From a virus, in IMG/VR virus record IMGVR_UViG_3300025410_000076, positions 1 to 27,816 of that record: a DNA stretch of 27,816 bases; one strand, 5' to 3'. A model generated the notes under the pieces. The model saw nothing but the letters and a program-made list of their open reading frames with translations. It made no database searches and was not told the origin of the DNA. Positions 2,258 to 20,289 of the stretch are shown in pieces (the first letter of the stretch is position 1; each line of letters begins with the position of its first letter). The position numbers and the translations under genes are program-made.

Positions 2258-5200
2258 ATGGCAAGAAAGATATTACTAGATACACAGTACACGTTCACAC
2301 CGTCTACTAGAACATTGGTTCTTAATAACCGATATATTCCACAGGAGCGTTTGCTTCTTATTACTAACGTTACACAGAATAAGGTTATATTTAACTTCTC
2401 AGATCCTAGTCTGAAAGCCACCTCTTATACTACATCCATGTCTGGTGCCACTGGTTTTACTACTATTGTTTTGAATTACAACACTTCAACAATGGCTGCT
2501 ACTGATAAGATTCAAGTAACAATTGATGAATACTCTGAGGCATTCCGCCCATCAGAAGAATTGACGGATCCAGTAGGAAAGCTCCGTACATCTACACCAC
2601 AAGCACTTATTGATACAGACTTTGAATATGGTACACAGGTTTCCAAGTGGGAAAACCTAACAATGATTAATAACCGTCCATTTGGTTATCAGACTGTTCC
2701 AAATATTTCAAACCTATCAAGCATTAGCTTGCCTAACCTTTCACGTACAGTAACTGTTACAACATCAACACCACACTATTTGACGGTGGGAATGCCAATT
2801 GTAGTTCAAGATACATATCTTTCAATTGCAAATGGTAACTATGTTGTAGATACAGTTCCAACATCAACAACATTTACATATACATCACGTTCTCTTAACT
2901 CTACATCAACAACATCAATTCTTGATACAAACAAGACTGCTATTTATCAAGGTGCCCTATATTCAGGTGCACAAATTGGTACAGCACCAACAGTTTCAAC
3001 AATTGCTTCAGGTAATGGTATGACTGTTGTTACAACTGTAAACCACGGTCTTGCAATTGGTAATGAAGTTGCAATTACTGGTATTACAACATCTACAGGA
3101 TATGCTCCAAATGGTGCATTTATTGTTGCTACAGTAAATGGTCCAACATCATTTAACGTGTATACACCACAAACTATTACTGGAACACTTACTGCAACTT
3201 CTGCTGCAGTTTATGTACGTCCACAAGGACAATTCCTGCACCGTCCATTTGACGGTGGAGTTATCTTCTCGTCCAATGGATCATCTAACTTTGAGCAGTC
3301 TGTTCGCCAAACTCGTCGTTACTTCCGTTACCAATCAGGTAAGGGTATTCAAATGTCAACGGGTACTGTGTTAAAGCCTAATCTTCAGCTTGATTCACTT
3401 ACATCATCTGGAACAACTGTAACAGTTCAAACTCGCGAACAACATAATTTGCAGGTAGGTGCACAAGTTCAAATTATTGGTGCAAATGAAACTGCATATA
3501 ATGGAACATTTACAGTAGCTGCTGTAACTGGATATAACACATTCCAGTATACTGCTCTTTCAACTCCTTCAGCATCACCAGCATCTGGATCATATTATGT
3601 ACAGGTTGTTGGATGGTATGGTGCTGCAAACCGTACAGGTTTGTTTGATTCTCAAAACGGTATGTTCTGGGAATTTGATGGACAAACACTTTGGGCAGTT
3701 CGCCGTAATTCAACATTCCAGCTCTCTGGTAAGGTTTCTGTAACAAATGGTAACCATACTGTTTCTCAAACAAGCACAACATTTCCAACTAACTTCTCAA
3801 AGCAGTTAGTCCCAGGAGACTATATTGTTCTTCGTGGACAAACTTATCGGGTAACAGATATTCTTTCTGATACAACTGTTAATATTACTCCAGCGTATCG
3901 TGGAACAACAGATCAAAACGTTATTGTTTCAAAGGTTTCAGAACTTAGAGTTCCACAATCTTCATTCAATATTGATAAGCTTGATGGAACTGGTCCTTCA
4001 GGATATAAGATTGATCTTTCAAGAATGCAGATGTGGTTTATTGACTTTGCATGGTATGGTGCGGGTGTAATTAGATTTGGTGTTCGTGGCACAGATGGCA
4101 ATATTATTTATTGTCACAAGATGCCTAATAACAACGTTAACTCTGAAGCATATTTACGTTCTGGTAACATTGCGGGACGTTATGAGTCTTCTACAAACCC
4201 ACCATCAACATATCCTACAACTTCAATTGGTGCATCAGACACATCAATTAACGTAGCCTCAACAACTGGATTCCCATCATCAGGAACACTTGTTATTAGA
4301 GGAAATGCTGGTGGTTCAAATACTAACTATGAGTATGTTAACTATACAGGTACAACATCAACAACATTTACTGGTTTAACTCGTGGTCAAGCAGGAAGTT
4401 CATCAATTGCTTTGACAGTTGCAGCAGGATCTAATATTGCAACAGTTTCATCAGCATCAGGACTTCAAGTCGGACAAAGAATTATTGCTCCATCTTACTT
4501 CCCAGATAATACATTTATTGCGGGAATTAGCGGAACAACATTGACACTTTCACAAGGTGCATTGCAGGCTAACCCAACAGTTATTGTACCTCCAATGGGT
4601 GCAACATCTGGACAGGTTTACACATATACTGCTTCTGCCCCACACACAATTGAACTTGCTTATCCAACATATGGCCCATCTATCTCACACTGGGGTACTT
4701 CGGTTATTATGGATGGCGGATTTGATGACGATAAGTCGCTTTTGTTCACATATGGACAATCAACTCCAGTCACAATCCCAGCCTCTGGAACAAAAGCCCT
4801 TCTTTCAATTCGTATCGCACCTTCTGTAGATAACGGTATAGGTGCGGGATTTGGTCAGAGAGAACTTCTAAATCGTATGCAGTTAGTTCTTAGAAACCTT
4901 GACGTTAATACATCAGGACCAATTCTTGTAAGAGCATATTTGAATGCACAGACATTTGCTGGACAGCAATCAATTCTTGGAAACGCAGTCGGAACTGCAA
5001 TTACAAGCAGTGCTACACCTCCATCAAACTCTGCAAGCGTAACAACATATACAACATCAGCAGCACATGGTCTTAACGTCGGAGATCAGGTTACTGTATC
5101 AAGTTACGGCGGAACTGGTTATAATGGTACATTTACAATTTTAACTGTTCCAACTACAACTACATTTACTGTTTCACAAGCAACAGTATCTGGAACACCA

Positions 5201-12424: not shown

Positions 12425-14470
12425 ATGTCATACAAGCAAGCGGTACTCAGAGATAATCCAATAGCATTTTGGCCATTAAACGGCACATCTAGCTTGAGAA
12501 CTTATGCTACCATTTTGCTTGAATATGCTACATATCAAGATTGGTTAAGTGCAGAACCTAACTACGGATACTCCCCGCTTACCTTTACACTAGAAGACAT
12601 TTCTTATAACGGCAATCACGGTGCATTTACATTGGGCCAGCCAAAGTTTGCTGACATATTGCCACTAGCAGCTTTGTCTAATTATGACACACAATTGGCG
12701 GGATGTAAGATTGATTCTGCTTCAGAAATTGGTATTACTAATCTTGCACAACTATACGATATGTTCTATACAGGAACAGAAAACTTAAAGTTTGGCATAG
12801 AGTTTTGGGTTGCATTTAATAAACCGCCATCAGGCGTTAATACATTATTTTCAGTAAATTATTTGGGCGGGAATATAATGAAAGCCTATGCTCAAAATGA
12901 TAAAATCTATCTAACTATAAATGGTAAAGATAAAGTAACTGGACAAGCATTATCGTATACAACATCAAAACAAGTTCCATCTTGGGATTCTCAAATGCAC
13001 GTATTCTTGTCATATGATCAAGGAAATATTAGCATATCTGTTAATTCAATTCCAGGAGATTCCGCAGTAGTATCCAATAACTTTATATTTACAAACAATC
13101 AATATGCACAAGCTGAGTTCTTCTATAATATGGGTCCAGCATCAGCAAATGATACATTTGTAATTAACGATCTTGCTTTTTATGATTACATATTGTCTAC
13201 AAATACAATTCGCTATCATATGGTCTGGGGAACCAATGATTCTGCCCCGCAAAATTATGTAAGAGAAACAAGTGGGTTTTTCTTTGATATTAAAGATTCA
13301 GAAAATATGTTTGCATTTAAGAAGCTGTTTACATCTCCAATTGATTATCAGCAAGGAGTTAACTCGGGGTTAAAATCTGATAAAACTGGTTTAACTCTAA
13401 CTCAAACATCAACTGCTGCTGCAGCATCAGGAAGCTGGGTATATTCAATTCCATCATCAGGATTAAGTAAAATATCTGGTGTTAAAATTGCGTGGGATTC
13501 TGGAATGTCTGACAACTCATCATTATCAGCATCAGATTATGCAAAGGTTGAATTATCACAAGATAACGGAGTAACTTGGACACAAGTAACTAATAGCTAT
13601 CCAATTGTAAAGTTTGCTGACAATGTATCTGTTGCATATCCAAATATGTTAGTTAGAGTAACGTTATCTACATCAGATTCATCTAAAGTGTATTTGCCAA
13701 GAATAGATAACTTGCTGATTGGTGTCTATAAAGATCTTTCTATTTATTCTGATGGTGGAGCATTTGCTCTAATGCCACGTGCTGGTAGCTATACTGGCGA
13801 TACTTATACAATTAAAAATAATTCATTTAACATTCTTGCAAGATCAGAAAACTTTGGTATCAAGCTTAATACCACAACTGATGGTAGTAATTCTATTGCT
13901 GCTATATACCCTCAGCTTAATTCCCCGCTTTTTCAAACAGTAGAGTTCTGGTTTAGATATGATGCAATAAGTACATCTAAGATACAATATATTCTTGACA
14001 CTATAGGATACAATGCATCTATCTACTTCAGCGGAGTTGACGGCGGGTTGATTCAGAATGGTTTCTCTACAGTCTATGTAAATGGCGTAGATATATCTAA
14101 TGGTAGATATTTAACCCAAGGCGAGACATATCACTTTATTTGCGTATATCCTCAACAGATTAATAATACAATCTACCTTGGTGGAGATGCAAAACTACTT
14201 AATTATTCATTATCAACATATGGCTACCTATCAGTATATCCAGGAGCATTTGCCGTTACAGACGCTCAAAATAGATATCTAAACTTTTTGTCAGCAACTG
14301 TATCAAAGATTAATTTCCCAAATGCCACTTCAACAATATTTGGCGGTAGTGTGGTTGCTGGTCAATCTCCATCTAATGTAATAGGCACATTGTCAGAATA
14401 CTCTGGCGGTAGCACAGCATATAACGGTGGACAGCCAATTTTGGCATACGTACATCCCATAAATGCTTAA
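12425..14470 (+). CDS. LamG-type minor tail protein
   Basis: 681 residues. The start MSYKQAVLRDNPIAFWPLNG is the classic opening of LamG-bearing phage tail proteins ('xxPxxyWpLn'), followed by ISYNGNHGAF, IEFWVAFN, HVFLSYDQGNISISVN and INDLAFYDYILSTNTIRYHM, so residues about 8-270 form one concanavalin-like domain. A middle domain (about 320-440) holds VKIAWDSGMSDNS, AKVELSQDNGVTWTQV and MLVRVTLSTSDSS, a beta sandwich. A second LamG-like domain follows (about 475-640: VEFWFRYDAISTSKIQYILD, STVYVNGVDIS, GETYHFICVYP). It probably binds carbohydrate at the tail tip or forms part of the baseplate. No Shine-Dalgarno precedes the ATG, but TATAAT lies six bases upstream. It is the last gene of the fibre block before the head genes. 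Confidence 0.8.
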   Translation: MSYKQAVLRDNPIAFWPLNGTSSLRTYATILLEYATYQDWLSAEPNYGYSPLTFTLEDISYNGNHGAFTLGQPKFADILPLAALSNYDTQLAGCKIDSASEIGITNLAQLYDMFYTGTENLKFGIEFWVAFNKPPSGVNTLFSVNYLGGNIMKAYAQNDKIYLTINGKDKVTGQALSYTTSKQVPSWDSQMHVFLSYDQGNISISVNSIPGDSAVVSNNFIFTNNQYAQAEFFYNMGPASANDTFVINDLAFYDYILSTNTIRYHMVWGTNDSAPQNYVRETSGFFFDIKDSENMFAFKKLFTSPIDYQQGVNSGLKSDKTGLTLTQTSTAAAASGSWVYSIPSSGLSKISGVKIAWDSGMSDNSSLSASDYAKVELSQDNGVTWTQVTNSYPIVKFADNVSVAYPNMLVRVTLSTSDSSKVYLPRIDNLLIGVYKDLSIYSDGGAFALMPRAGSYTGDTYTIKNNSFNILARSENFGIKLNTTTDGSNSIAAIYPQLNSPLFQTVEFWFRYDAISTSKIQYILDTIGYNASIYFSGVDGGLIQNGFSTVYVNGVDISNGRYLTQGETYHFICVYPQQINNTIYLGGDAKLLNYSLSTYGYLSVYPGAFAVTDAQNRYLNFLSATVSKINFPNATSTIFGGSVVAGQSPSNVIGTLSEYSGGSTAYNGGQPILAYVHPINA

Positions 14471-16442: not shown

Positions 16443-17300
16443 ATGGCAACGGCATTAGATGTTCTAAACGTTGCCAGAACCCAAATAGGGTTTCATGAAG
16501 GTGCATCAAATGAAAATCCATATGGTATTTGGTATGGTGTTCCAAATGCTCCATATTGTGCAATGGGAATCAGTTGGTGTTTTGCACAAGTTGGTTTATC
16601 ACATTTAATTGCTGCACAAACTCCTAAAGGTTTTTCTTTTAATCCAGCAGCTTTGCATTGGTTTCAAATGCAAGGTCTTGTTGTTAATAAAATGTTAATG
16701 CAACCAGGCGATTTGATTATGTACGACTGGAACGGGGACGGGGTAGCAGATCACGTAGAACTATGTGAGAATGCAAGTCCTGGAGGATTTACTACAATTG
16801 CTTTTAACACTGGTAATCCAAATGATCCAACACAAGAAGGCTGCTGGAGAGTTCACAGAAATTATCTATTTGTAATTGCGGTAATAAGACCAAGATATCC
16901 TGTTGTCGTTGCTCCAACTAAACCAATAACAACTGGTAAGAAAGCAACAGCAGTTGTTGGCGGAACTGGTGCAGCAGTGGCGGGTGCTACTGGAATGTTA
17001 CATACAGGAGCTGTTTCAGGATCATCAAGTGCAACACCATCACCAAGTCCTACAGTATTTATTGCACCACCATTTCCATCATCTCAAAATTCATTTGCCA
17101 TAGGTCAAACCAATGACGCTGTTTTAACAATACAAAAAGCTCTTGTTAAAAAAGGAATGCTTCTCGCAAAATATGCGACTGGAACTATGAATACTCAAAC
17201 AAAGGCGGGACTTGTAAAGTTTGATAAGACTCTTGGCATTATAGTGCAAAATGGAGCAGTTCCTCAAATAGTCTATGATAACTTAAAGGGTGCACTATGA
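16443..17300 (+). CDS. Endolysin: CHAP amidase/peptidase plus peptidoglycan-binding domain
   Basis: 285 residues. Residues 1-155 form a CHAP-like cysteine hydrolase: the nucleophile is Cys39 in NAPYCAMGISWCF, and the general base is His104 in PGDLIMYDWNGDGVADHVEL. This spacing is that of CHAP domains that cut peptidoglycan peptides or the amide bond. A low-complexity linker (about 158-215, with VVGGTGAAVAGATGM and TPSPSPTVFIAPPFPSS) leads to a C-terminal peptidoglycan-binding helical domain (about 222-283: AVLTIQKALVKKGMLLAKYA, TGTMNTQTKAGLVKFDKTLG). No signal peptide is present, so export needs a holin; the next gene, overlapping by ATGA, has two membrane segments. The location between portal and protease is unusual. 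It could instead be a virion-associated hydrolase; the adjacent holin candidate favours lysis. Confidence 0.85.
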   Translation: MATALDVLNVARTQIGFHEGASNENPYGIWYGVPNAPYCAMGISWCFAQVGLSHLIAAQTPKGFSFNPAALHWFQMQGLVVNKMLMQPGDLIMYDWNGDGVADHVELCENASPGGFTTIAFNTGNPNDPTQEGCWRVHRNYLFVIAVIRPRYPVVVAPTKPITTGKKATAVVGGTGAAVAGATGMLHTGAVSGSSSATPSPSPTVFIAPPFPSSQNSFAIGQTNDAVLTIQKALVKKGMLLAKYATGTMNTQTKAGLVKFDKTLGIIVQNGAVPQIVYDNLKGAL

Positions 17301-17638: not shown

Positions 17639-17674
17639 TCTTTATCAAAATTATGCTTTATTTATAAATATTGC

Positions 17675-17680
17675 TATTAT
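17675..17680 (+). promoter_or_regulatory. -10-like box before the protease gene
   Basis: TATTAT lies in a very AT-rich 52-base gap, ten bases before the ATG at 17691. No Shine-Dalgarno is present in the gap, and no clear -35 is at the right distance. It may drive a leaderless or near-leaderless mRNA for the protease and capsid genes. Confidence 0.25.
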
Positions 17681-17690
17681 TTATTTACAT

Positions 17691-19097
17691 ATGGATATTC
17701 AAAAAACTTACTGGCAAAACAGCGAATCTTCAATGGCCCTTCACTTCCCTATTACAAAGGTGAACAAGGAAAAGAGAACTGTTTCAGGATTCGCAACACT
17801 AGACAACCTTGATCGCCATGGCGATATTGTCACGGCGGAAGCAAGCAAGAAAGCATTTGAAAGATTTAGAGGAAACATCCGTGAAATGCACGGAGCCTCA
17901 GCAGTCGGCAAGATGGTCAACTTTAAAGAAGATAGTTTCTTTGACCCAGAAACAAATAAAAAGTATAACGGAATTTATGTAACAGCATACATCTCAAAGG
18001 GTGCACAAGATGCTTGGGAGAAGTGCCTAGATGGTACTTACTCAGGTTTTTCTATTGGTGGCAACATTGTAGATGCAAAGATGGAAAAGTCAGATGACGG
18101 AACAGACTCTCACAGAGTTATTCACAACTTTGATTTGCACGAACTTAGTATTGTTGATTCACCAGCAAACCAACTTTCTAATTTCTTTTCTATTCAAAAG
18201 ATGGCGGAAGGCATTGTAACAGAAAACGTATTCTGGTGTAAGGCTGACGAAGTAGCATCAACAACAACTGCAACAACAAAAGATTGCGTTGTTTGCGGAG
18301 ATTCAATGACAAACATTGGTTGGGTAGAACAGGCAGATATTGAAAAGCTTGAGACAATTGAAAAAGTTATTGATTCTTATTTTAAGAAAGATGATGCACC
18401 AACATCAGCACATGAAGCAACGGAGACAGCAGCTCCAGGTTTGGCAGGTAACGTAATTGATAGCAATGCTTCAATAAATCTTTATCCTGATCAAAATGAA
18501 AAAAAGAAAGTCACGTTTGCGAACGGGCTTAAAAAGAGTGATGATATTTCGCTCAACGAAGGAGGTAACAAAATGGCAGAAGATACAATCGCAGAAGTTG
18601 CAGAAATTGCAGCTGATGTAGAGACTCCAGCCGAAGAAGTTTCAAATGTTGAAGCAACTCCAGAAGATACCAGCATTGAAAAGGCTGTATCAATTTCTGA
18701 GGTTGATGACGCACTTGATTTTGAGAAGATGGTCACAGACCTAAAGACCTTCTTTGGTGAGTCACTAGAAAAGTCTAATACTAATTATGCAACACATGCA
18801 GCAACAGTAGCAGACATGTACAACATTGTAAACGAAACAAGAGCTGAAATGGCTCGTTTGTCAAAGGCTTATGAGGATATTCAAAAGACAAATGATGATC
18901 TCGTTGCAAAGTATGAGGCACTAAATAAGTCAGTAACTGACATGTTCGGAAAGATTGAGTATGTTGACCATCAGCTCAAGAATTTTGAATCAGCTACTGC
19001 AGTTCAGAAGTCCGTTGGGGTTCAGGCTCCAATGGGTCAAACAAAACCAAAACAAAGTATATGGCAAGGTGCTTTCCTCAGTGCTAGTAACATATAA
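17691..19097 (+). CDS. Prohead protease with C-terminal scaffold region
   Basis: 468 residues. Residues 1-170 form an HK97/XkdF-like prohead protease of the S78 type, which cleaves scaffold and capsid arms during head maturation. Visible motifs are VSGFATLDNLDRHGDIV (31-47), His67 in REMHGASAVGKM, the Ser-rich GTYSGFSIGG (115-124), and LHELSIVDSPANQ (149-161). His67 and a Ser of the GFSIGG region are the likely catalytic residues by family comparison. A Cys-pair segment (CVVCGDSMTNIGW, 199-211) may bind metal if paired with other Cys residues. From residue about 295 the protein is acidic and helical, with a coiled coil at about 385-440 (MYNIVNETRAEMARLSKAYE), typical of scaffold. An in-frame ATG with an excellent Shine-Dalgarno starts exactly at Met295. 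The gene start itself has no Shine-Dalgarno. Confidence 0.85.
   Translation: MDIQKTYWQNSESSMALHFPITKVNKEKRTVSGFATLDNLDRHGDIVTAEASKKAFERFRGNIREMHGASAVGKMVNFKEDSFFDPETNKKYNGIYVTAYISKGAQDAWEKCLDGTYSGFSIGGNIVDAKMEKSDDGTDSHRVIHNFDLHELSIVDSPANQLSNFFSIQKMAEGIVTENVFWCKADEVASTTTATTKDCVVCGDSMTNIGWVEQADIEKLETIEKVIDSYFKKDDAPTSAHEATETAAPGLAGNVIDSNASINLYPDQNEKKKVTFANGLKKSDDISLNEGGNKMAEDTIAEVAEIAADVETPAEEVSNVEATPEDTSIEKAVSISEVDDALDFEKMVTDLKTFFGESLEKSNTNYATHAATVADMYNIVNETRAEMARLSKAYEDIQKTNDDLVAKYEALNKSVTDMFGKIEYVDHQLKNFESATAVQKSVGVQAPMGQTKPKQSIWQGAFLSASNI
18561..18575 (+). promoter_or_regulatory. Internal ribosome binding site and start inside the protease gene
   Basis: AAGGAGGT (ending at 18566) is followed by AACAAA and an in-frame ATG at 18573. 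This is the strongest Shine-Dalgarno in the head module, while the protease start at 17691 has none. It is well placed to begin a separate protein from codon 295. Confidence 0.7.
18573..19097 (+). CDS. Nested scaffold protein from an internal start
   Basis: 174 residues, in frame with and identical to the C-terminal 174 residues of the protease-scaffold protein. It begins MAEDTIAEVAEIAADVETPA, is acidic over its first 60 residues, has ALDFEKMVTDLKTFFGESLE at about 47-66 and a long predicted coiled coil (about 85-145), and ends QSIWQGAFLSASNI. Helical, acidic and short matches head scaffold proteins. The capsid protein just downstream begins directly with its mature-type fold and shows no long N-terminal delta domain, so a separate scaffold is needed. 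The protein would be made in excess over the full-length protease, as Nu3 is from gene C of lambda. The Shine-Dalgarno is seen directly; expression as a separate product is inference. Confidence 0.6.
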   Translation: MAEDTIAEVAEIAADVETPAEEVSNVEATPEDTSIEKAVSISEVDDALDFEKMVTDLKTFFGESLEKSNTNYATHAATVADMYNIVNETRAEMARLSKAYEDIQKTNDDLVAKYEALNKSVTDMFGKIEYVDHQLKNFESATAVQKSVGVQAPMGQTKPKQSIWQGAFLSASNI

Positions 19098-19131: not shown

Positions 19132-20289
19132 ATGAGTAATGAACTTCTACAAAAAGTCATTGATACTACAAGCTCAAGCCTTGGAACTGCAGCAGTAAAC
19201 GCATCAGCAGATACAGCTACCCTTTCAGGTAACGGTCTCCTATATCCAGATCAAGCAAATCGCTTCTTGGATTACATGTGGGATGCTACAATTCTCGCTA
19301 AGGCAGCTCGTACAATTCGTATGCGTTCAAACACAACCGAGATTGATCGTGTTGCAGTTGGACAACGTATCATGACAGTTGCACAGGAAGACAATCCACG
19401 TGACTACGTGGCAGCTAATGGTACATATTCTAATGCGAACGGTTCTACGTTCTCAGCACAGAATGCTACTTTTAACAAGGTCTCCCTCACAACTCGCAAG
19501 CTCCGTCTTGACTGGGAACTTTCAGCAGAGTCTCTTGAAGACAATATTGAAGGTCCTGATCTAGAGGATCACATTGCACGTCTTATGGCTACCCAGGCTG
19601 GTAACGATATTGAGGATACCCTTATTAACGGTACTGGAACTGGTTCAGGTTTGATGTCAGCTTTCCAAGGTTTCCGCTCTTTGGCTCTTAACAACGCACA
19701 CGTTGTTGACGCTAATGGATACGGACTTGACAAGACAGTATTCAACGAAGCTATTAAGAGACTTCCTCGTAAGTACAAGCAACGTCGTAACCAACTCAGA
19801 TTCTTCACAGGATCTAACTTGGTACAGGATTATCTATTCAATTTGACAGCTAACGCTGGTAACGGCAACCCATTTGATATCGCTTCAGGTATCATCCGTG
19901 GTGATGTCGCTGCTAACGATGGTGGTCCAGGAACAGTAACTCCTTTCGCATTTGGTATTCCAGTTATCAACGTTCCGTTGATCTCAGAAACACAAAGCGG
20001 AGACTACTCTGGTGCTACAGGTTCACACGGAGATGTCCACTTGACATTCCCACAGAACTTCATCATTGGTATTAAGCGTGACGTAACAGTTTATCGTCTA
20101 TTCCAGCCAAAGAAAGACACAATTGAGTACACACTCTTCATTCGTGTCGGTTGCGTAATGGAAAACTACGATGCACACGTTATCGTTAAGAATATCAAGG
20201 TTGCAGGTTCTACAATGTCAACATCATCATTCGGTTCAGGAGCTAACGGCTCTAACGTAACTGGTGGAGTTAACGGCGAGACATACTAA
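19132..20289 (+). CDS. Major capsid protein (HK97 fold)
   Basis: 385 residues, building the icosahedral shell. After a short N-terminal arm (1-40), LLYPDQANRFLDYMWDATIL at about 36-55 leads into ARTIRMRSNTTEIDRVAVGQ and the extended loop at about 78-120 (AQEDNPRDYVAANGTYSNAN, AQNATFNKVSLTTRKLRLDW). The spine helix region follows with ELSAESLEDNIEGPDLEDHI and ARLMATQAGNDIEDTLINGT, the standard HK97-type order also seen in phages of actinobacteria. The C-terminal part has HLTFPQNFIIGIKRDVTVYR then LFQPKKDTIEYTLFIRVGCV, the A-domain strand set, and a Gly/Ser tail. Codon use is biased to CGT and AAG, as expected for a highly expressed gene. It follows the protease-scaffold gene by 34 bases and has the strong shared leader. 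A terminator-like hairpin follows. Confidence 0.92.
   Translation: MSNELLQKVIDTTSSSLGTAAVNASADTATLSGNGLLYPDQANRFLDYMWDATILAKAARTIRMRSNTTEIDRVAVGQRIMTVAQEDNPRDYVAANGTYSNANGSTFSAQNATFNKVSLTTRKLRLDWELSAESLEDNIEGPDLEDHIARLMATQAGNDIEDTLINGTGTGSGLMSAFQGFRSLALNNAHVVDANGYGLDKTVFNEAIKRLPRKYKQRRNQLRFFTGSNLVQDYLFNLTANAGNGNPFDIASGIIRGDVAANDGGPGTVTPFAFGIPVINVPLISETQSGDYSGATGSHGDVHLTFPQNFIIGIKRDVTVYRLFQPKKDTIEYTLFIRVGCVMENYDAHVIVKNIKVAGSTMSTSSFGSGANGSNVTGGVNGETY

Follow-up and report, generated by a model that had tools for sequence, protein, structure and literature searches.

A conserved in-frame start inside a phage capsid protease gene points to a second product, a putative free scaffold protein

A prohead protease gene in a viral contig raised the question of whether one gene can yield both the protease and a separate scaffold. 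The window, that is, the whole stretch of 27,816 nucleotides that was analysed, is the IMG/VR record IMGVR_UViG_3300025410_000076, and the gene lies next to that of the major capsid protein. An earlier note on this DNA had proposed that the phage follows the plan of lambda genes C and Nu3, in which a scaffold is made from the 3' end of the protease gene. The analysis supports that plan: a ribosome-binding site and an in-frame start were found in all of the roughly 245 distinct relatives compared, and judging from these sequences the gene almost certainly encodes two proteins in one frame, the capsid protease and its C-terminal scaffold part in free form.

The outer protein matched the phrog_9427 head maturation protease along its whole length (residues 1-468, E 4.5e-110) in a profile search. 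A Pfam scan of the same protein placed PF14550 and PF04586 (S78_2/S78) above the gathering score and gave no match to Peptidase_S49. A structure model was made from 31 relatives, and only its outline was used because its mean pLDDT was 51. In it the protease domain is rich in beta structure. With this moderate-confidence model, a fold search returned the T4 gp21 protease as the sole PDB match with E below 0.001 (5e-5). Residues H67, S121, E151, S153 and D156 of the protease are invariant in the clade. The C...CxxC segment that follows, whose cysteines are kept in Streptomyces and Rhodococcus phages also, is a possible zinc ribbon.

Beyond it the model is of low confidence up to about residue 343. 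The first 49 residues after the nested start (295-343) are 33% D/E with a net charge of -15, and in the predicted helix behind them the best register has hydrophobic residues at 20 of about 28 a/d positions, the other registers at 7-15. The C-terminus of the model is again of low confidence; the F of its WQGAFL motif is present in all 12 aligned scaffolds, and that this motif is a coat-binding tail is a guess. It had been claimed that the nested ATG sits exactly where protease gives way to coiled coil. The position is right approximately but not exactly, as the helix begins at 344, well behind the end of the protease fold near residue 170.

Tudor-like insertions (PF11160 in L161, with similar stretches in L164, L218, L247 and L250) are found between protease and scaffold. 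They sit behind the CxxC segment and, in contigs that extend far enough, upstream of the nested start; the role of such an insert in a capsid protease is unexplained.

The elements described in the earlier note are all present in the window. The Shine-Dalgarno sequence AAGGAGGT is followed after 6 nt, which read AACAAA, by the in-frame ATG at 18573. When 25 gene starts of the window were scored by duplex energy with the 3' end of 16S rRNA, this site came out lowest, at -13.6 kcal/mol; the best of the other internal in-frame ATG/GTG codons (n=130) reaches -9.6 kcal/mol. AAGGAGG occurs on the + strand of the window in two copies only, one at the nested site and one upstream of the gene at 1606. 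In the predicted mRNA fold the nested Shine-Dalgarno is mostly unpaired. The features are collected in Table 1.

Table 1. Positions in the window of the outer gene, the nested gene and associated features.
Feature	Position	Strand	Remarks
Conserved -10-like box TATTAT	17675-17680	+	10 nt before outer ATG; no Shine-Dalgarno
Outer gene: prohead protease-scaffold fusion	17691-19097	+	468 aa, 51.5 kDa
Protease domain, residues 14-170	17730-18200	+	structure model; fold match
C...CxxC segment, residues 177-213	18219-18329	+	C183, C199, C202 invariant in clade
Variable low-confidence linker, residues 231-294	18381-18572	+	pLDDT about 30; holds nested ribosome-binding site
Nested Shine-Dalgarno AAGGAGGT	18559-18566	+	-13.6 kcal/mol; kept in all complete relatives
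Nested gene: putative free scaffold	18573-19097	+	174 aa, 19.1 kDa, pI 4.35; ATG = codon 295 of outer frame
Predicted long helix, residues 344-441	18720-19013	+	moderate pLDDT; coiled-coil-like heptads
C-terminal WQGAFL motif	19062-19079	+	W458, G460, F462, L463 invariant in clade
Major capsid protein	19132-20289	+	385 aa; own Shine-Dalgarno; PF05065 match from residue 59

Relatives were gathered by protein similarity, independently of the nested site. The sample consisted of 80 IMG/VR loci, one MAG contig, Streptomyces and Rhodococcus phages and distant IMG/VR loci; it spans Streptomyces phages, Rhodococcus phages and freshwater contigs. The 245 distinct sequences scored form 22 clusters at 75% protease identity and are not independent of one another. 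Scores for L207 and L250 were corrected by eye before the final count, and L131 (= L230) was left out for a frameshift within the protease domain. The MAG contig (L082, CAINGU010000031.1) holds a 62% identical copy under the label of an uncultured cyanobacterium, and possibly is a binned phage.

The nested site scored -11 kcal/mol or better in 243 of the 245, and the two weaker sites were those of L172 (-9.9) and L336 (-10.7). Relatives that had lost the site while keeping the protein around it, the outcome that would speak against a nested gene, were looked for and not seen; no complete relative lacked the nested site or the in-frame start. Apparent losses were explained by AAGGGGGT variants of the site (L053-L055, L058, L061, L064, L070, L071, L073, L074, L078), by a TTG start (L250) and by a truncated contig (L207). 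The named phages share about 31-42% identity with the window protein where the two match, and each has, at codon 245-268, a start whose site scores -12.8 to -16.1 kcal/mol, with 159-191 aa remaining downstream. The site is also found in Streptomyces phages Jay2Jay and Comrade, with the nested start at codon 255 or 267.

In one contig, L181 (= L314), protease and scaffold are naturally separated by an in-frame TAA after a 240-residue protease. The stop reads AAG TAA against AAG AAA in L178 and L183, and the Shine-Dalgarno and GTG of the scaffold are intact about 60 nt past it. An error of sequencing or assembly might account for this split, which was weighed as supporting, not decisive, because it was seen in one contig only.

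What would the nested product do? Only about 45 residues precede the N-arm of the coat protein, not enough for a delta domain of the HK97 type, which bears out the earlier statement that the capsid protein lacks a long one. Conserved coat sequence begins at about residue 33-50 in the window and at about 20 in Streptomyces relatives, and comparison of the N-terminal sequences gave no sign of a delta domain of about 100 residues. An AlphaFold2 model of the coat protein had a pLDDT of 37 and was not used. Between the portal and connector genes of the window no alternative scaffold candidate was seen. A CHAP-domain endolysin gene (16443-17300) lies between the portal and protease genes, within the head gene cluster.

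The nested part itself is acidic and has a predicted 98-residue helix with heptad bias. Searched against known scaffold families and structures, the scaffold half gave no significant match, its coiled-coil matches being weak and unspecific, and an alignment profile of the protease-scaffold protein run against PDB sequences also gave unspecific coiled-coil matches only. That the nested product is the scaffold is suggested by where it lies, by its composition and by the lack of any other candidate. Alternatively, initiation could be real while the free protein regulates or inhibits the protease, or plays a minor accessory part, and the fusion does the scaffolding as in P2 gpO. This seems improbable, because a scaffold that acts only as a fusion would need no perfectly kept second start, and because composition, heptad pattern, adjacency to the coat gene and the lack of another scaffold gene all fit a scaffold.

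A free scaffold might also come from a transcript of its own that begins within the gene, as happens with herpesvirus UL26.5, and the ribosome-binding site would serve a long or a short message alike. Against this, a simple scan for a sigma-70-like promoter on the + strand from 17829 to 18573 found none, a kind of scan that would miss a phage-specific promoter. We consider a separate transcript quite unlikely, and an internal translation start on the protease message is the reading carried forward here.

The same sequence could in principle be no start site at all, its Shine-Dalgarno-like letters being chance or just encoding a conserved Glu-Gly-Gly peptide. The codons GAA GGA GGT are common in this AT-rich gene, and G291 and G292 are invariant within the close clade. 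Synonymous-site conservation within the close clade was by itself only mildly informative, and a comparison of lineages by codon phase took its place: in synonymous change within the clade, Gly292 ranks second lowest and Gly291 fourth lowest among 19 testable Gly codons. Across 28 clusters AAGGAGG is read in two phases, as (E/K)GG in 15 and in a shifted phase, mostly KE(E/A/V/D), in 13, so that other lineages spell KEE, KEA, KEV or KED with the same nucleotides. The nested start codon is ATG in 17 clusters and GTG in 11, with TTG in L250, and the spacing between site and start is kept while the start codon varies (M, V, L). Within the close clade, codon 290 is GAA, CAA or AAA (E, Q, K); its second and third bases are always AA, and the base that changes is outside the motif. 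Other internal starts are almost never as strong: among 2327 internal ATG/GTG contexts in the first loci fetched, 5 were at -12.5 kcal/mol or below, and 3 of those 5 are one homologous site.

Conservation beyond the amino-acid need, the check proposed at the outset, was thus found. Two codon phases and a varying start codon indicate that what is conserved is the ribosome-binding site and start, and that selection acts on these as nucleotides and not on the peptide. The comparison demonstrates, at the level of the genomes, that an internal site for initiation exists and that its nucleotides are under selection, and a peptide-only or chance origin is hardly credible. Nor is it at all plausible that the site, which does sit in the linker past the protease and CxxC domains, mainly pauses ribosomes at the domain boundary to aid folding of the fusion, as pausing would not call for a start codon at a set distance, such as all complete relatives have, and the split contig L181 retains both site and start though no fusion is possible there.

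The outer start is of a different kind. As had been noted, the ATG at 17691 has no Shine-Dalgarno (+1.3 kcal/mol), and the element around its TATTAT box (about 17651-17690) is conserved in the clade. A TAWNAT -10 box was found 4-11 nt before the protease start in 209 of 237 relatives (12% for shuffled upstream sequence), and a Shine-Dalgarno in 6 of the 237. In contrast, the capsid gene start has a Shine-Dalgarno in 158 of 205 and a TAWNAT box in 7 of 205. Nine Streptomyces phages share the layout TTGNNN-N17-TANNNT-N6-ATG at the protease start; among the 1790 ATGs of 12 named loci, 19 have this pattern, all nine protease starts included, and in the records with annotation the ATGs that bear it are annotated gene starts. 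The window's own promoter-like pattern was sought elsewhere in the window and did not recur.

Because the -10 box stands 4-11 nt before the start, without a Shine-Dalgarno and family-wide, the protease mRNA is probably leaderless or near-leaderless; the gap found in the window predicts a leader of about 3-4 nt. The earlier note had pointed to the bare outer start and had inferred that scaffold is made in large excess. The observation stands, but a start without a Shine-Dalgarno is a family trait and by itself no proof of excess.

Several other starts have features of their own. The genes starting at 12425 and 14534, also without a Shine-Dalgarno, look leaderless too because TATAAT or TATTAT stands exactly 6 nt before their ATG. 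In Streptomyces relatives the small gene that directly precedes the portal gene shows this same arrangement. In L063 (around 4900-5001) a micro-ORF of 13 codons comes after the promoter element, and its stop overlaps the ATG of the protease. The L063 protease is preceded by a Shine-Dalgarno-like sequence, and a similar one precedes the protease in L035, L051 and L056.

Altogether, these observations are very probably explained by a two-product gene, with the fusion made from the outer start, the free scaffold from the nested start, and the two assembling together. Cellular translation, the scaffold role, co-assembly and the relative amounts of the products are inferred. Ribosomes at 17691, on an mRNA that has no Shine-Dalgarno and is probably leaderless or nearly so, would make the full protease-scaffold fusion. 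Others, bound at the strong internal site at 18559, would start at 18573 and make a free, acidic, helical scaffold of 174 residues with the same C-terminus as the fusion. Fusion and free scaffold would co-assemble inside the procapsid through their shared helices and C-terminal tail, the coat protein, having no delta domain, would build around them, and the protease would then degrade the scaffold ahead of packaging. A more doubtful suggestion is that two initiation routes set the protease-to-scaffold ratio throughout the lineage, a 5'-end leaderless 70S-type route for the protease and a Shine-Dalgarno route for the scaffold. If two routes did operate on one message, the ratio would track the translation state of the host.

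The nested gene would supply a scaffold for Stanwilliamsviridae, the Trina and Weasel groups and many freshwater contigs, in whose examined records none is annotated around the protease gene. Where the ribosome-binding site stays fixed, a switch of codon phase reveals an in-frame nested gene under selection by sequence comparison alone, and the test can be reused for other phages. The family-wide contrast between an outer start that abuts a promoter and has no Shine-Dalgarno and an inner start driven by one is testable in cultivated Streptomyces phages.

Among the closest counterparts are the Stanwilliamsviridae and the Rhodococcus Trina/Weaselvirus phages, whose capsid maturation protease (phrog_9427) shares the full-length family, the gene order and the nested site. 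The public records examined for these groups show a single protease gene, with no annotation of the nested start or the scaffold, and a search of the open-licence literature turned up no account of a nested scaffold in them.

HK97 and T5-like phages are alike in having a serine head protease adjoining an HK97-fold coat gene. In HK97 the scaffold is the delta domain of the coat protein (PMC8508860). T5-like Vibrio phage Thalassa has a 201-aa protease with no scaffold half and a 465-aa coat protein, lengths consistent with a scaffold located in the coat protein there.

In herpesviruses UL26.5 has its own promoter and transcript, whereas the evidence here favours an internal translation start. 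The layout is similar, a protease with a C-terminal scaffold and a nested in-frame scaffold gene, and PMC2949831 describes UL26c as containing the whole of UL26.5.

The lambda protease gpC is an S49 (ClpP-like) protease, whereas the protease here matches Peptidase_S78/S78_2 and the T4 gp21 fold, and the outer gene here has no Shine-Dalgarno and abuts a promoter. The likeness is one of mechanism, with no sequence relation shown: as in lambda, the protease would carry a C-terminal scaffold, and free scaffold would be produced in frame from the 3' portion of its gene. Lambda C and Nu3 overlap according to Shaw and Murialdo 1980 as cited in PMC8508860, and Nu3 interacts with C and E (PMC3224144). 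With an in-frame internal start that precedes the C-terminal part and is served by a separate ribosome-binding site, the window gene fits the lambda C/Nu3 mechanism by analogy.
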